In this document: one piece after another, positions 33,929 to 64,000 of the stretch
Numbering within the stretch: position 1 is the first letter of the stretch
How the letters are laid out: the number at the start of each line of letters is the position of its first letter
Assembly (NCBI GenBank): GCA_014238055.1
Contig: JABABV010000001.1
Location: 120,938 to 184,937 of the forward strand
DNA length: 64,000 nt
DNA from: Mycoplasmatales bacterium
Lineage (GTDB): Bacteria; Bacillota_I; Bacilli_A; Mycoplasmatales; JABABV01
Direction of reading: 5' to 3'
Notes under the pieces: model-generated
What the model saw: the letters and a program-made list of their open reading frames with translations, nothing else
Told to the model about the DNA's origin: nothing
Database searches by the model: none
Program-made: the position numbers and the translations under genes

Positions 33929-34969
33929 ATGAAAAAAATTTTAAAAAGTATTATAGTTAGTACAGCTATAGTCACACCAATAACTTCTGTAGCGCTAAGT
34001 ATAGTTAGTTGTGGCCACAATAGTGCAACTACAAACGATTGAAACTCATTTAAACAATCTGCTAAAAAAGATAGCACTAACCACATTATGAATATTATAA
34101 ATGCATTAAATAAAAAATCATCAAATTTTTCAATACAAAGTTGAGCAGAAAACGGATATTCTGATAGTGATTTTTCAACAACTCTTACAGTTGACGATGC
34201 TAATCAAACGTTATCGCTAACAGTAACGAATGATTATTTAAAAAATAATGGTATTTTAAATATTAAATATAATAAGCAAAAATACGATATTAATTATTGA
34301 AATATTACTAAAGAACCAAAAGCTGGAGAAGCAGTTCAATGATTAAATATTAAACGTCACGTTAAAGACTTGAGCGCTAAAGATTTATTAGGTTATGCTA
34401 AAAGTCAAGGCGTTGCAACTCGTTGAGCCGCTAGTGATAATCCTCATTTTGATATTTATGGTGGCGTCTTTAACGGTGCTATGGATACTGATAACACTAA
34501 CAAAGATTACACCGTAACTGCTATTATTTCAATCGATAAAGGTAATGGTAGTCCAGATAAAAATGCTTATTTAAACGTTCATCCAATTCAAGCTACTTAC
34601 ACGATGGATGTAGGTTTTAATTACAATCTTAAAGAATGAAATTTTAAATCTATTAATCAAAGAACTAGTCTATCATATTTTTACGATAGAATTTCAGATG
34701 TAATCCACGCATCAGTAGATGCTAAAGATTTTACAATTGATCCAGGAATTAAAGCAGCTATAGATGGACATTGAGGTTCTGGGACTTGAGACAAAAATAT
34801 TACTGTAAAACATGCTGATGTCTTACGAAATATAGATCAATGAACAATAATAACAAATGTTAACGGAACTAGTAAAGAAGCCGTCTTAACCGCTGAAGGT
34901 AAAAATTTTAACGAAAAAGAGCAATCAGTCGACGGTTATAGTGATGATATTTGAACTGTAACAATATAG
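33929..34969 (+). CDS. lipoprotein, modular paralogous family (copy 1)
   Basis: MKKILKSIIVSTAIVTPITSVALSIVSCGHN lipobox; repeat modules WNSFKQSAKKDS..., ending YDINYW / YNLKEW. Confidence 0.85.
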
Positions 34970-35002
34970 GAATATAATTAACAAATTTAGTTTGGAGTTA
35001 AT

Positions 35003-36091
35003 ATGAAAAATACTAAAAAAAATTTAAAACTATTATTTTCATCTACTGCATTAGTTGCGATAGTGGGATCGGCCAGTTCGACAGTTGTTAGTTGTGGTCA
35101 TAAAAGTAGTCCTCCTTCTCCTTCAACGTTATGGAAAAATTTTAAATCAGCAGCTAAAAACCAAAGTACTACTGACATCGTTAATAGTATGAAAATAATA
35201 TCTTGAGTAAATAATATATATAGCGATAGTGATTATACTGTTGATTTTGAAGCGAATGATAATTCGAAACAGATTGTTGATACGATAACTAATAATGTTT
35301 TAAAAAACAATGCTGTTATATCAATTAATTTTTCGGCAAATCACCCAACTTATAATATTAAAAATTGATCTATTATAACATTACCTGAAAATTCTAAAGC
35401 AATTCAATGAGCAAATATTAAGCGTCATACTAAAAATATTACTGCTGAAACTTTAGGAAACCAAGCTATTAAAGCTAAAACAGCAGGTTGAAAAACAGGT
35501 GATAAAGCTGTTTTTGATACATTTAGTGATGGTATTATGGGTGATCCCGAAATTAAAATTGACGATACTAACTTCACTTTAACAGGGATAATTTCGATTA
35601 ATAAAGGTAGTGCGGCTCGTAATTCTTACGGTGACGTAAATCCTCTTTACGTAACTTATAGATTCGAAGACCAAATCCCATATAATATAAGTAATTGACT
35701 TTTTGATAGTTCTAAAAAACAACGAGTTTCTTGAAAATTATTTACAAATAATGCTAATAATTATATTAGTGATTCAGCTAATGTAATTAATGGAAATACT
35801 ATTATAAAAGGTCTTATTGATAAATTAAAGGCAAAACACAATTGAACAGATCTTAATTTAATTGATGTTTCTGACAATCAAGGGACTGGCGAGTTCGGAC
35901 CACAACCAGGTAGACCGGGCGTATCTCCTTTTTACGGTTGACTTTTGACTTTTAATAAAGGTCCAAAAAGCGAAAATAGAACAATGACTTTACAAGCAAT
36001 TTTTCACAACTTTAATTATCCTACAAAAGGTGGGACTCCAATAGGAGATGGTTTCGATCCAGCCGATCCAAACACTTGAGAAGTTATTTAA
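35003..36091 (+). CDS. lipoprotein, modular paralogous family (copy 2)
   Basis: MKNTKKNLKLLFSSTALVAIVGSASSTVVSCGHK; LWKNFKSAAKNQSTTDIVNS; YNIKNW/YNISNW. Confidence 0.85.
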
Positions 36092-56584: not shown

Positions 56585-56671
56585 ATAAATAGCTTAACAA
56601 ATATAAAAATTAATATCAAAAAGTTATTGACTTTGATATCAAAATATTATAAAATATTAGAGCAAATTAAC

Positions 56672-56755
56672 GGAGGGGTAGCGAAGTGGCTAAACGCGGT
56701 TGACTGTAACTCAATTCCTTCGGGTTCAGGGGTTCGAATCCCTTCCCCTCCACCA
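56672..56755 (+). tRNA. tRNA-Tyr(GTA), CCA encoded
   Basis: GGAGGGGTAGCGAAGTGGCTAAACGCGGTTGACTGTAACTCAATTCCTTCGGGTTCAGGGGTTCGAATCCCTTCCCCTCCACCA; long variable arm. Confidence 0.95.
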
Positions 56756-56761
56756 TTTGTT

Positions 56762-56836
56762 TGGGGTATAGCCAAGCGGTAAGGCACACGGTTTTGATCC
56801 GTGTATGCGTTGGTTCAAATCCAGCTACCCCAGCCA
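56762..56836 (+). tRNA. tRNA-Gln(TTG), CCA encoded
   Basis: TGGGGTATAGCCAAGCGGTAAGGCACACGGTTTTGATCCGTGTATGCGTTGGTTCAAATCCAGCTACCCCAGCCA. Confidence 0.95.
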
Positions 56837-56976
56837 TATCATTTTATTAATGACTACTAAAAACTAAGAAATTAGTTTTTTTATTTTTTATAAATAAAGA
56901 ATAAACATCCTACTCAAAAAAGTTTAAAATTAATGGAAAGTATAATTAAAATACATACAAATTCTAGAGATATTAA

Positions 56977-57153
56977 TTAGATCCTTTTATGGGTAGTGGA
57001 ACAATTGAGGCTGTAGCAATTAAACACAAAAGAAAATTTATAGGTATAGAAAAAGATAACACTTATTTCAAAATAACACAAGATAGATTCGATGATATAA
57101 AAAAACAACTTAATATAAGTTGTTTTTTTATTATTATTTTTTATTTTAATTAA
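56977..57153 (+). pseudogene. C-terminal remnant of an N6-adenine/N4-cytosine DNA methyltransferase
   Basis: LDPFMGSGTIEAVAIKHKRKFIGIEKDNTYFKITQDRFDDIKKQL = SAM-binding motif I end of a beta-class MTase; TAA immediately upstream in frame, no DPPY half. Confidence 0.85.
57099..57130. terminator. intrinsic terminator after MTase remnant
   Basis: aaaaaaacaactt-aata-taagttgttttttt. Confidence 0.75.
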
Positions 57154-57157
57154 CCGA

Positions 57158-58291
57158 TTATACCATGTCGCGTGTTACTATCATTTCAAAATATGCATCA
57201 GGCGCTGAAGTAGTAGGTATTTTTGGCGCAAATACTTTTTGTTCAGCATTCTGTCAACGAAATTGAAACTCTCCACCGCGACCTACCGGGGTTTTTCCTT
57301 GAAAAAGACTAACATCTGTAAATGTAATTGTTCCTTTTGCTAGATCTGAAGAAATTGTTATGTCTTTTTTAAAATGAACTGTTATATTACTTGATGAACT
57401 ACCAGCTTTATTAAGAATTGCCGCTATTTTTTTTAAATGATAATGCGATAGATTTTTAGCAGTAGTTTCAATGTCTACTAAATGGTGTAATGCTGTTATA
57501 GCATCTTTTGTAGTATCAAATAAATTTTTTGCACTGTCTACTCAATTTTGAAAAGCAGGTTCTTCATTTTCAACATTAACAATTTTGAAAGAGCTATTGT
57601 AGTTGAAAGGCATGTTCTCTGTCATTGTCGCAGAGATATCTAAAGTATCTGTGCTATCTGATGTTGTTTTCTTTGCTGGATTTAGCTTGATTGTATAGAA
57701 AACTGTATGAGTTTCATCATCTGGTTTTTTAGTTTGAGTGGCTACAAAAGGTCCTTTAACTTCACCATTAGTTATTCAAGCTTTAGGAACTACAAAGTGG
57801 CCGTAAAAACTTTGATTTTGAGTTAAAATCTTATAAATTCCTCCAGTATTAGAAACTTGATTATGGGCGGCGGTTTTAAAATTAGCTCAAGCTTTAACGC
57901 TTGGATCTACTGGTTGTGTTGTACATTGTCAATTACTAATAGAATATGCCGTATTAGCTACATAAGTAGCTGTAAATACTGCTTCTTCTTTTTTAGACGC
58001 TGACTTAATCGTTGCTTGAACGGTAGAGTTAGGTGTTTTAACTCCTGGATGTCCGCTTGTAGTAAAACTAAAATCAGTAGTTGTGGCAACGTCTCATCCC
58101 GTTGGTTTAGTTTGGGCTACGATTGATGATGCTGATTCTGCTTTTGCTTTTTTAACAAAGTCATCAAATGAATTTTGAGTTGGTGATCCACCTCCGCCAC
58201 CTTTGCTCCCACAACTAACAGTTGTAACAGCTAAAGAAGCTGGCGCAAGGATTGCTCCACTAACTAGTAATATTTTTGTAAATTTTTTCAT
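57158..58291 (-). CDS. lipoprotein, modular paralogous family (copy A)
   Basis: MKKFTKILLVSGAILAPASLAVTTVSCGSKGGGGGSPTQNSFDDFVKKAKAESASSIVAQTKPTGW...; lipobox; continues to TAA at 57158 with TGA=Trp. Confidence 0.87.
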
Positions 58292-58371
58292 TATATCTCC
58301 TCTTCTTAATTTATTTATATACATTTATATATTACCAAAATAATATTAAATCATATATCTTTTTTTTATTG

Positions 58372-58440
58372 ATAATCTATATCTATAACAAAGTCATTAA
58401 TGTTGAATGGTTTATTATCGACTTGAACTCCTTGGTACTT
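58372..58440 (-). pseudogene. residual C-terminal tail of a lipoprotein gene
   Basis: KYQGVQVDNKPFNINDFVIDIDYQ* matches the tail QVNNKPFNINDFVPDTDS* of the intact gene at 59679-60956. Confidence 0.75.
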
Positions 58441-58452
58441 TAAATATTAATA

Positions 58453-59616
58453 TTATTCATTATTTAAGTTTTTGTTAAAGTTTAGTTTCGTTAGGGTAGG
58501 TGTTTTTGCTATCATTTCTTTCATAGATTGTATTTCGTATTTATCAGGGTTTGGGTCTGTTGATGTTCTTGCTACTGTCGGGTTAAATTCTGTAGGCAGT
58601 GTATAAGTTCAACGAAATAGAAAAATTCCGTCTGTTGCGTATGTTTTTAATCCGTCGTTAGAAACAATATCAACTCCACTAAATGTAATTGTTCCTTTAG
58701 CTAAATCTGCTTTAAAAAGTTTAGGATCTGATTTTAATTTAACTTTTATATCTCCAAATTTACTCCCCGAAAGAGTTAATACTTTATCTATAGTAGTTAG
58801 ATTTGGACTTTTTGTTTTATTATCTAAACGTCCCATAACATCTACTAAATTTTGTAAAGCTATTATAGCAACTCCGTTTTGTGTTGAGATTAAGTTTGTG
58901 GCGCTCGTTACTCATGCATTAAAATTGGAACTTTCATCTGCTACACCTTGAATTTTTAAATCTGAATTTTTAAATGTTAGATTTTTTAAAGTCATCGTTG
59001 CTTTAACAGTAACAGTATTGGCTGCGTCACCTTTCATTGATATTTTGAATGAAATAATATATTCAACTTCATCTTTAGAAAGTTCTTTAGCAGAAAATAC
59101 TTTGTTATCTTTTATTGCTAAAGCTGTTATTCATGAGTCGACAACAATAAAATGACCATATACACTTTGATTTAACTCTAAAATAGTTTTAACACCTTCT
59201 GATGTTGACATTATATCTTCAGCTGCTTTTGAATAATTGACTCAAGCTTCAATGTGTGGATCTGTTGGAGGTGTTGTGTTACGTCATTGATGGACACTAT
59301 AAACTTTACCGATATAGTCAATTTCAAAAGTACCCACTTTATGGTCCATTGAATTAGTAATATGTACAAATATTTTATGATCATCATCATATGCTTTATA
59401 TTTAGTAATACTTAAATTGGTTTTGTCTTTTCAAGCAGTTTGAGTAGTTGCTTTAGCTATTTCTCAAGCACTTTCTTTATGTGCTTTAGCTTCAAAAGTT
59501 TTTCAATCAGTTTTTTGACTTCCACCTTTATGACCGCAACTAACTGTTGTAACGGCTAAAGAAGCTGGCGTAAAGATCGCTCCACTAACTAATAATATTT
59601 TTCTAAATTTTTTCAT
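58453..59616 (-). CDS. lipoprotein, modular paralogous family (copy B)
   Basis: MKKFRKILLVSGAIFTPASLAVTTVSCGHKGGSQKTDWKTFEAKAHKESAWEIAKATTQTAW; leader nearly identical to copy A. Confidence 0.87.
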
Positions 59617-59678
59617 TTTATCTCCTTTTTAACTAATGATATATTTCAAAAATAATATTAACTTATACATCTTTTTTA

Positions 59679-60956
59679 TTAAGAATCTGTATCTGGAACA
59701 AAATCATTAATGTTGAATGGTTTATTATTAACTTGGGGCGACTTTACTTTAAAGTCAGTTTTTAAAAGATCATTATCAAATACACAATAAATAGTTTGTG
59801 CAGTTCGGTTAATGCTAAAAGCGGATAAATGGAAATGTTCTCTAGCTTTTTCACTTATATTAATATAAGCGTATCATTTATCAGGTAATTTATATCCTAA
59901 TTTATGGATGTTTAATAATACATCGATAACTCCACTATTAGTACTAGTTTGATTATGAGCATCTCTGTAATATTGATTTCAAGTTGATTCAACTTGACCG
60001 CCATTAGTTCATTCGTTTTCGAATCCGGCATAAGCGAATAAGCGGACTACAGATTTGCCTGATTTATTTTTAAAAATGCGCAATTTAGTATCGAAACGCA
60101 CAAAATAATTGGCGGTTCAATTGTTAATTCTAAAGTTAGCGCTATCGTTTGAAAAATTGATAGGTCCCACTTCAGAATAACTCTTTGAAAATTTCGACTG
60201 ACTAATAGACCATTCTTTAAAAAACTCTTTATTGTAAAGTTCATTTACTTCTGATTTTCAATTATTAAAACTATAATTATAAATTCATTGTGAATAAATA
60301 TCATATTTTTTAACTTTATTTCATAATATTTTTAAAGTGATTGTGTAACTAAAATCTTTTGAATTATCTTTTAATCCCAAGACGATATGCATATCAATTT
60401 CATTTTTTTTATCATCTGTGAAATTAGAACTAGGTTTTGCTACTAGTGAACTTTGATCATAATATCTAAAATCAATATTAATATTTTTTAAAACATGATT
60501 ATGCGCAGCTGCACTACTCAATAATTGTCAAGTTGCAACAGGATCGTTAGCTTCAGTTTCGTCTTTAAATTCATTAAAGTTTTTATCGACATAATCAGAA
60601 ACATCATTAAATTTTTTTCAATTTTTTATATTATAGTCAACTCCTGTACTATATTGCGCAGTAGCAGTTACTTTTTCTTCTCTAGTGATGTTTTTAATTA
60701 CATATCTGACGTAATTAACACCAATCACCATATCGCTTTTACTATACATTGAATCATCTTTTGTTGACCAAGTATCGATTCCTAATTGATCAACAATTTT
60801 TTTAACAGCTTCATCTTTAGCATGTCTTTTAAAATCAACAAATGTTGGTTCATCGAAAATTCCAAAAAAAGAACAACTAACTGCTTGAGATGAAGCAGCT
60901 ACTACCGCTGAAGAAACTACCAAACTTTTAAAACAAGTTTTTCAAATTTTATTCAT
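59679..60956 (-). CDS. lipoprotein, modular paralogous family (copy C)
   Basis: MNKIWKTCFKSLVVSSAVVAASSQAVSCSFFGIFDEPTFVDFKRHAKDEAVKKIVDQLGIDTW... PQVNNKPFNINDFVPDTDS*. Confidence 0.85.
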
Positions 60957-61049
60957 TATTAAACACTTCCTTTATTTCAAAAAATAAAAAAATAATATTA
61001 ATACAGAATTTTAGTATATCTATATTAATATTATATCAAAATTGAATTG

Positions 61050-62039
61050 TTAAGATTTAAGTTTTTCAACTTCAGTTATATAATTTTTCAATTTATTTTT
61101 AAGTTTATTTACTTCGTTAACGTTATCTCAATGATCTATTTTACGATGGCAATTAGGACACAATCCTACTGTATTAGTAATATTATCTTTACCGCCTTCT
61201 TTAAGAGCTATGATGTGAGCTACCTCTAAAAATGAGAAGTTTTTAAACCCTACTTTATTTTGAAAAGGACCACAGTTTTTACATAATCCACAAATACCTT
61301 TTTCTCTTTTAATAACATATTCTTTAACTTTATTACTGCGTTTATAACTATTTACATTTTTATTAATTTGTTTTGGAACTTCTTGGCTATTAAGTTCTTG
61401 TTTATCTTCATTTGAATATATATAATTATTATTAGATAATTTAGTTTTAATTAATTCTATTCCAAATTTATTTTTCAATATTAATGTGTTTCTTAAAAAT
61501 ATAGTAATATAATTAAATAAATTTTTTTCATCAATTGGCCCAGAAAAAATTTTATAAGTTATAACGTTAGGAGTATATCCTTTAGCAGTTCCTGTGGTAC
61601 CTAAAACTAAATCACTTTCATCTTTTACGAATGAAAATTTATCTTTTAAGTTGTTAAACCAGTTTGTTCTTTTTGATAAATAATTTTGCTTAGTTAATTT
61701 AGGAACTGAGCTTTTGTAATACTTGCTACCTTCCATAATCACTAACGCTAACTTTTCTGAATAATAACCTGATTTTTCTTTTGTGCCAAAAAATAGCAGA
61801 GCTGTGAACAGTCCTTTTGATGCTTTATCTTCAGGATTAGCAAAGAAACATATTCAAGGAACATTAGCATGGTTTCCAGCACCAGTAGAACCTTCTATTC
61901 TTGGCACTTCTGGAAAAACTTCTTTTAATTTATTGATATATAATTTATTGGTCCCATTCATTATCTGTTTTAATTCTTCCATTTTATTTTCTTTTCTTAA
62001 TCTAAAAATATCATTAATGTTTAAATTTTGTAATTCCAT
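61050..62039 (-). CDS. putative restriction endonuclease: MrcB_N(DUF3578)-like domain + HNH nuclease
   Basis: EGSTGAGNHANVPWICFFANPEDKASKGLFTALLFFGTKEKSGYYSEKLALV resembles the McrB N-terminal fold; CGLCKNCGPFQNKVGFKNFSFLEVAHIIALKEGGKDNITNTVGLCPNCHRKIDHW is an HNH/McrA-type nuclease. Confidence 0.82.
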
Positions 62040-62078
62040 TTTTTCTATATCTCCATTTTTTCACATTTTTTTAAGTTT

Positions 62079-63524
62079 TTAAGCCGGTGTAATATCTGCC
62101 TCTCAAATATTATTAAAACATTTAGTCCCATTAACTATTACTGGAAGTTTTCCAAAAGTAGCAACAAATCTTAAAACCATTTTATAACCTTTTCCATTAA
62201 CTGAAAAAGAGAAGTTAATTTCTGCTATGCGAGCAGTTGGTGTCGCTCCTTTAAAATCATTATCTGATATATATACAGGTTGAGTATGATTTCTATAACT
62301 ATTTACACTTAGAACATAACTAATAGTATTTGATGCTGCATGGCGAATAGATTGTGTATTAGATGATTCATTACCTTTAGGAATTGTAATTCAGTTTTGT
62401 GATTCAAATTTCGATCAATTAGTTTTTGCTAAATCTCGCGCTTTAGCAAACTGATCGTAACCACGTTTAATTGATTGTTGTTGTGTCATCATGCTAAATT
62501 TTCAATCTGATATTTGATATTTTTGACCTATTTTAGTATAGCTAATAATCGCTTTAAATGGATCTCTAGCATAATCAGCGATATTTCCTGCTTTACAGAT
62601 TATTGCACTAATAGTATGGTTTTTATCATCAGCAGTTGGGTTACCTAACATACCTTTAAATTTTTCATCACTAGTTGAATTACTTCCGATAGTCTCGTCA
62701 AACATAGCACTATCGTTTTCACTTCAAAATCTTTCTGCTATAGTTCCAAAAGTTCAATTTAGTTTATGAATATCATTAGTAGCTTTGAATTCATTGAATA
62801 AAGCTGCCGGCGTTGCATTCATAGCCGATGATTTAAAAGCGCTTCAACCATTATAAGGTTGAACTACACAATTTCAATCTTTTAAACTATAATCATTATC
62901 TTTATAGTCGATTCTAAAAGAAGCTACATTTGAATCTGCTTTATTACTAATATCTAACGTTATGATTTGAATATTATCATTAACTTTTTCATTAATAATT
63001 GATAGATCACTTTCGTTAGGTAAAGGATTGTTTCATTTTTCAGGAGCAGTATCTTGAACGATATTTAATGCTGTTTCTGCTTCGGCACTAATTTTGAACT
63101 TAGCTCAACCTTTTATTGGTGGTGGTGGGACTGGAGTTGGCCCACTAGTGCATACTCAATAGCCAACTTGATAATCTTGACCTTTAACATAATCAATTTC
63201 AAAACTAGCTTTGGTCGAATTACTACCAACTGTTCTAACGATAAATTCACTAATTTTTTTAGTAGTTTCATCGGCTTTAAAATTAATGATGTTTAACTGA
63301 CTTGGTGTAGCATCGCTTCAACCATTCGGTTTTGTTTGGGCAATAATATTTATTGGTGTTTCTGCTTGAGCAGCTGCTTTAAACGGAGCTCAATTAGGAT
63401 CTTTAGTAGGTCCAGTTGATTTATGGCCACAACTTATCATCGACATTCCTGTAGCACTAATAGTAACTATACTAAGAGAACTAGAAAATATCTTAAATCA
63501 ATTTAATTTTTTTATTTTAAACAT
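62079..63524 (-). CDS. lipoprotein, modular paralogous family (copy D, several modules)
   Basis: MFKIKKLNWFKIFSSSLSIVTISATGMSMISCGHKSTGPTKDPNWAPFKAAAQAETPINIIAQTKPNGW ... GWAKFKISAEAETALNIVQDTAPEKW ... YSLKDW ... GWSAFKSSAMNATPAALF. Confidence 0.87.
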
Positions 63525-63577
63525 ATTCCACCTAACTTTCTTCACAATTGAATCGATAAAACAATTTTATAAAATTA

Positions 63578-64000
63578 TTAATGTTTAAATATATTATTTA
63601 TGTATCATACGTTTGCAAAAGGATTCCCGCCACCACTATTATTATTACCATTAGCATACATATAATTAAATTTTAGAAACATTTCAAAAGAACCGTTACT
63701 TGCTTGAAAACTTAAAACTAATTCTGCAAAGATACCGACTTGCTTAGCACCATTTTTAATATTACCGTTAAAATAATTTCAACTAACACATACTCAATTA
63801 TGAACATTTTTATAACCATTAGCTTCTAAAACGCTTTTCATATTATTCGTTGGATCGTGATGGTTTGAAGCTGTGTTTGCTGCCTTGTTGCCATTAGGTT
63901 TAGTAATTCAATTACTTTTTTCAAAAGCTTCTAAACCAGCTGTTGTATTTATTTTTGGAGCTTTATCAATAGCATATACAATTCCGCTATTATAAGCTTT
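63578..64000 (-). CDS. lipoprotein-family protein, C-terminal part (continues past window)
   Basis: ...WITKPNGNKAANTASNHHDPTNNMKSVLEANGYKNVHNWVCVSWNYFNGNIKNGAKQVGIFAELVLSFQASNGSFEMFLKFNYMYANGNNNSGGGNPFANVWYINNIFKH*; similar to the C-terminal module of copy D. Confidence 0.75.

Follow-up and report, generated by a model that had tools for sequence, protein, structure and literature searches.

Restriction-modification (R-M) systems are a common defense against phages. In mollicutes, their genes are gained and lost rapidly, and gene fragments such as the one described here mark the sites of former systems. In the HpyAV/Hin4II plan, C5 and N6A methyltransferases jointly cover both strands of an asymmetric site and are accompanied by an HNH restriction endonuclease (REase); M.HpyAV itself is a C5+N6A fusion encoded beside its HNH REase (PMC2816704). 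Key AdoMet-binding residues of the related enzyme M1.HpyAVI are D29 and E216, and F195 is located in its FMGSG motif (PMC5173035). In Metamycoplasma hominis, the presence of DCM3, a 592-aa C5+beta fusion, goes together with CCTC methylation, while deletions and pseudogene fragments of the gene dam2 accompany the loss of an REase gene, with intermediate decay states in several strains (PMC10305163).

Here, we describe a comparable fragment in a stretch of 64,000 nucleotides (the window) from a mollicute-like organism with a draft genome of 845 kb. It is best read as the dead 3' remnant of a type II beta-class DNA adenine methyltransferase gene, the rest of which has been deleted or rearranged away, and we estimate the probability of this reading as a whole at roughly 0.88. 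That the fragment is a dead methyltransferase remnant is close to certain, and it is an ordinary pseudogene fragment of a known methyltransferase kind. Descent from an R-M system rather than from an orphan or phage enzyme is probable; descent from an HpyAV/Hin4II-type C5+N6A enzyme is favored somewhat less strongly.

A methyltransferase gene end in two reading frames

The genes around the remnant read through TGA codons, i.e., TGA encodes Trp in this organism; one tRNA with the anticodon tca is present, which ARAGORN labels tRNA-SeC. tRNA-Tyr and tRNA-Gln come first, followed by a weak hairpin that has a T run; next is the remnant, then a strong hairpin, and finally, encoded on the opposite strand, a lipoprotein (Table 1). 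The first hairpin, although weak on energy alone, is probably the terminator of the tRNA-Tyr/tRNA-Gln pair, and the remnant starts within about 10 bases of it.

Table 1. Features at and near the methyltransferase remnant (positions in the window).
Feature	Position	Strand	Basis
Promoter-like TTGACT-17-TAAAAT 5' of tRNA-Tyr	56627-56655		Promoter scan, consensus match only
tRNA-Tyr (gta)	56672..56755	+	ARAGORN
tRNA-Gln (ttg)	56762..56836	+	ARAGORN
Weak hairpin and T run behind tRNA-Gln; 5' limit of remnant	56859..56890	+	Fold -5.7 kcal/mol, z -1.2
Remnant piece 1: motif X, IKNKHPTQKSLKLMESIIKIHTNSRDIN	56894..56977	+	PF01555 positions 160-184; 35.3 bits to relatives' profile
One-base frameshift between pieces	56974..56980	+	Sequence; relatives uninterrupted here
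Remnant piece 2: AdoMet-binding motif I (DPFMGSG) to C-terminal end	56977..57117	+	PF01555 positions 186-220; 51.0 bits
Strong two-way terminator-like hairpin; remnant end and lipoprotein-gene end	57097..57131	both	Fold z -6.9
MrcB_N + HNH endonuclease gene, intact, 338 aa (code 4)	61050..62066	-	Pfam; PADLOC mREase_IV

Judged by its sequence, the segment 56894-57117 stems from a beta-class (N6A/N4C) DNA methyltransferase gene and represents its 3' end, about the last eighth (about 220 bp, about 72 codons). It consists of two pieces in different frames. Piece 1 carries motif X, which reads KHPTQKSLKLMESIIKIHTNSRDI, and its frame is closed by TAG at 56978-56980. Piece 2, with the peptide LDPFMGSGTIEAVAIKHKRKFIGIEKDNTYFKITQDRF that includes LDPFMGSGT, lies in a frame that is open from 56977 to 57153 and has no start codon ahead of motif I, the first ATG being located inside DPFMGSG. 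The frameshift thus separates motif X from motif I, and no single open reading frame covers both; the alignment of the intact relatives has no break at this point. The order and spacing of the two motifs are nevertheless those found at the C-terminal end of PF01555 enzymes. Against Pfam N6_N4_Mtase (PF01555, 221 positions), piece 2 gives an E value of 6e-11, and piece 1 alone gives 1e-4, just under the curated cut-off; joined, the two pieces match positions 160-220 with an E value of 1.5e-19. In a profile built from 11 intact relatives, both pieces score far above eight shuffled windows (at most 8.9 bits), and the next-best real match is the RsmD gene with 15 bits. Over both pieces, 22 of the 24 columns that are invariant among the relatives are kept; changes are confined to T39 and G40, which adjoin motif I.

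The initial annotation had recognized the C-terminal AdoMet-binding motif of an N6A/N4C methyltransferase at 56977, the upstream closure of its frame by TAA (56974-56976, a stop under both code 4 and code 11), and the lack of the DPPY catalytic half, and all of this is borne out. It had overlooked the motif X piece, and the remnant is therefore somewhat larger than noted. The terminator hairpin that it took to remain from the methyltransferase locus is real, but an origin from the methyltransferase gene is not required: the lipoprotein gene on the minus strand ends at 57158, the hairpin (AAAAAAACAACTTA...TAAGTTGTTTTTTT) reads as its terminator too, and hairpins of similar form occur at about a dozen places in the genome, on both strands. 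This is probably a common terminator type of the genome. The adjoining lipoprotein gene belongs to an array of related lipoproteins with a lipobox ending in SCG (57158-63841, 33929-36091, and L136:16-2559). None of the four members scanned has a Pfam match, and the array is probably a lineage-specific surface family.

The remainder of the gene is present neither in the window nor elsewhere in the genome as assembled. Profile searches of the window and of two more stretches of the same contig revealed neither a further piece of the N6 domain nor any C5 domain, and no C5 methyltransferase domain or gene is found directly 5' of the remnant; any such part was either lost or absent from the outset. 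Likewise, the whole assembled genome contains no other trace of PF01555 and no match to PF00145; the DPPY catalytic block and the target-recognition region are absent from both, so that the segment is a remnant and not a functional PF01555 member. With motif X and motif I in separate frames and without the DPPY part, it can have no enzymatic function now. A search with four Pfam types (PF01555, PF00145, D12, and N6_Mtase) found no intact DNA methyltransferase in the genome. The single D12 match was considered as a Dam gene and rejected, as its sequence is that of RsmD. The two N6_Mtase matches lie in genes that, judged by eye, are housekeeping-like methyltransferases, one in a setting of thymidylate-synthase- and DNA-polymerase-III-like genes, the other beside a prfA-like gene. 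The remnant suggests that a lineage in which these four types detect no intact DNA methyltransferase once had one.

Intact relatives and the question of origin

An order-wide search gave matches in 127 of 320 genomes. In nine of the 11 best genomes, which share 54-63% identity over the remnant, the relative is a C5+N6A fusion of 590-633 aa; in the other two, the C5 and N6A enzymes are separate adjoining genes (G151) or the N6A gene stands alone (G149). The fused and paired relatives have HPTQKSL...IHTN...DPFMGSG in common with the remnant. At one locus (L083), PADLOC MTase_II PDLC03279 matches the fused gene from end to end, and the adjoining ~400-aa protein matches PADLOC REase_II PDLC03514. 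An HNH REase of this latter family lies beside the fused gene at seven loci in all (at one of them, L084, a C-terminal fragment), whereas L096 has an REase of a different family and the neighbor at L097 gave no match. Because most of the closest intact relatives adjoin a restriction enzyme, a type II R-M origin of the remnant is the most likely one, and to this extent the earlier view of the segment as a decayed R-M locus holds: the decayed methyltransferase is seen directly, and its former membership in an R-M system is likely from the REase neighbors of its relatives. At one of the best-matching loci (L082:3730-4975), an HpyAV-type REase is apparently broken into several short frames beside an intact fused C5+N6A methyltransferase, a state of decay opposite to that of the window.

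The partner REase family PDLC03514 has no match in the genome, a negative that is weak evidence because the same search was silent in all control genomes too; locally, its absence is supported by a profile search of the window alone.

A possible though clearly less likely alternative is that the remnant derives from a solitary beta-class methyltransferase, e.g., one borne by a phage or prophage, which never was part of an R-M system here. Solitary relatives do exist: two members of the clade are unfused, and one of these, with 275 aa, has no recognized C5 or REase neighbor (L095). Moreover, many relatives are found in phages and on viral contigs, one of which (L139) encodes an unfused relative with 60% identity over the remnant, the highest among them, and a Mycoplasma anserisalpingitidis prophage (MW353169.1, 5445-7247) carries a C5+N6A fusion of 600 aa without a recognized REase adjoining. 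However, among the best matches in genomes, fused or paired enzymes next to an REase predominate, and no phage genes were recognized around the remnant. Since some close relatives are unfused or solitary, descent from a fused enzyme is no more than likely. In the tree, the remnant falls into none of the well-supported sets that comprise at most half of the rows; with only about 72 residues left, support for its position within the clade is weak. A search for relatives of the locus via the aminopeptidase gene led to one distant locus only.

The tRNA pair and the proposed loss of the gene

The position of the remnant directly behind tRNA-Gln can be compared with the tRNA clusters of the related genomes examined, which have the order Val-Thr-Tyr-Gln-Lys-Leu (three genomes), Thr-Tyr-Gln-Lys-Leu (one), or Tyr-Gln-Lys-Leu (four). 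In the present genome, Tyr-Gln stands alone, and the same contig carries a cluster Asn-Glu-Val-Thr-Lys-Leu at a distance of about 49 kb (G000:C76:226969-227540), in which Thr and Lys are separated by only a few bases. The pair has therefore been split from the cluster, and the stretch behind tRNA-Gln is a point of rearrangement. Of the two processes that had been proposed for this tRNA-linked site, integration and deletion, rearrangement or deletion fits the tRNA pair better.

The rest of the gene would have been removed by a deletion or rearrangement that on one side ended just behind tRNA-Gln. The lost part would measure about 500 bp if the gene encoded a solitary N6A methyltransferase, or about 1.6 kb if it encoded a C5+N6A fusion, which is the more frequent of the two in the nearest relatives. 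The restriction enzyme would probably have been lost in the same event. The frameshift and the two substitutions beside motif I would have arisen, in whatever order, once selection was gone.

It is improbable that the draft assembly has produced this picture, the frameshift being an indel error or the remnant being joined to tRNA-Gln in a chimera. The assembly comprises 164 contigs and has 2% contamination, and the frameshift lies within a short AT-rich run, but a base error is insufficient to account for the missing rest of the gene, because the remnant follows immediately upon the tRNA terminator. In addition, other parts of the gene are found on no other contig, and the contig of the remnant is 286 kb long.

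A mobile element that integrated at the tRNA gene, brought in the methyltransferase, and then decayed is a very unlikely cause as well. Apart from the location behind tRNA-Gln, such a scenario might draw on one genus of another family, in which an R-M-like gene set lies 4-5 kb from tRNA-Tyr/Gln. Yet no repeat of either tRNA of 14 bases or more, and hence no att-like repeat, is present in the window, and no integrase or recombinase was recognized among the neighboring genes scanned. In about 55 comparable genomes, a methyltransferase and tRNA-Tyr/Gln occur within 6 kb in only four, three of them in that one genus (counted by eye), and its methyltransferase (361 aa) belongs to another subfamily. 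In the literature, nothing was found on R-M remnants at mycoplasma tRNA genes. As to the gene set of the three genomes (L086, L087, and L107), it comprises a beta-class methyltransferase and genes without assigned function near a tRNA-Tyr/Gln/Lys/Leu cluster, joined by an HNH gene in two of the three; as an intact orthologous cassette it was rejected, its methyltransferases measuring 361-368 aa and being only 44-49% identical to the remnant. The remnant itself sits at a breakpoint of a tRNA cluster; it leaves the general picture unchanged.

A nuclease gene with MrcB_N and HNH domains is embedded among the lipoprotein genes, 4 kb from the remnant. By PADLOC, the HNH part of this nuclease resembles type IV (methyl-directed) nucleases. 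It was considered as a candidate for the partner REase because HNH and methyltransferase matches are found near each other in several genomes. Although it scores 31 bits with the partner REase profile, it was rejected: the partners in those genomes are of another HNH family, and it has only the HNH core of about 33 residues in common with HpyAV-type REases. It is therefore not counted as the lost partner. We consider it very unlikely that the nuclease is left over from the system that was lost here and has outlived the methyltransferase as a modification-dependent or inactive protein; if true, its gene would represent a frozen step from an R-M system to a solitary nuclease.

Finally, there is next to no room for a reuse of the methyltransferase end as a small conserved functional open reading frame (58 codons) or as a regulatory RNA. 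In spite of the many invariant residues kept, the conservation spans both frames and cannot be that of a single product; moreover, two residues adjoining motif I differ, and piece 2 lacks an upstream start.

Comparison with known systems

With the HpyAV/Hin4II type (C5+N6A, type IIS), the remnant shares the motif series given above within the C-terminal 70 residues, at 51-61% identity by alignment and up to 64% in the tree set. It differs from this type in the lack of a C5 domain, a DPPY block, and an REase, and in the frameshift between motifs X and I. The best match among solved structures is M1.HpyAVI (PDB 5hek/5hfj, E 5e-17). M1.HpyAVI (HP0050) is a beta-class N6A methyltransferase acting on GAGG/GGAG/GAAG, whereas the remnant is not an enzyme: in the alignment, equivalents of F195 and E216 are kept, but the N-terminal part, including D29 and DPPY, has no equivalent.

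Published parallels are also offered by M. hominis. In its domain plan, DCM3 agrees with the nearest intact relatives of the remnant. The dam2 fragments differ in that they derive from another methyltransferase gene with another motif order, and intermediate states are seen in several M. hominis strains, whereas the remnant is known from one genome. Like the remnant, however, the dam2 fragments are methyltransferase pieces without an REase.
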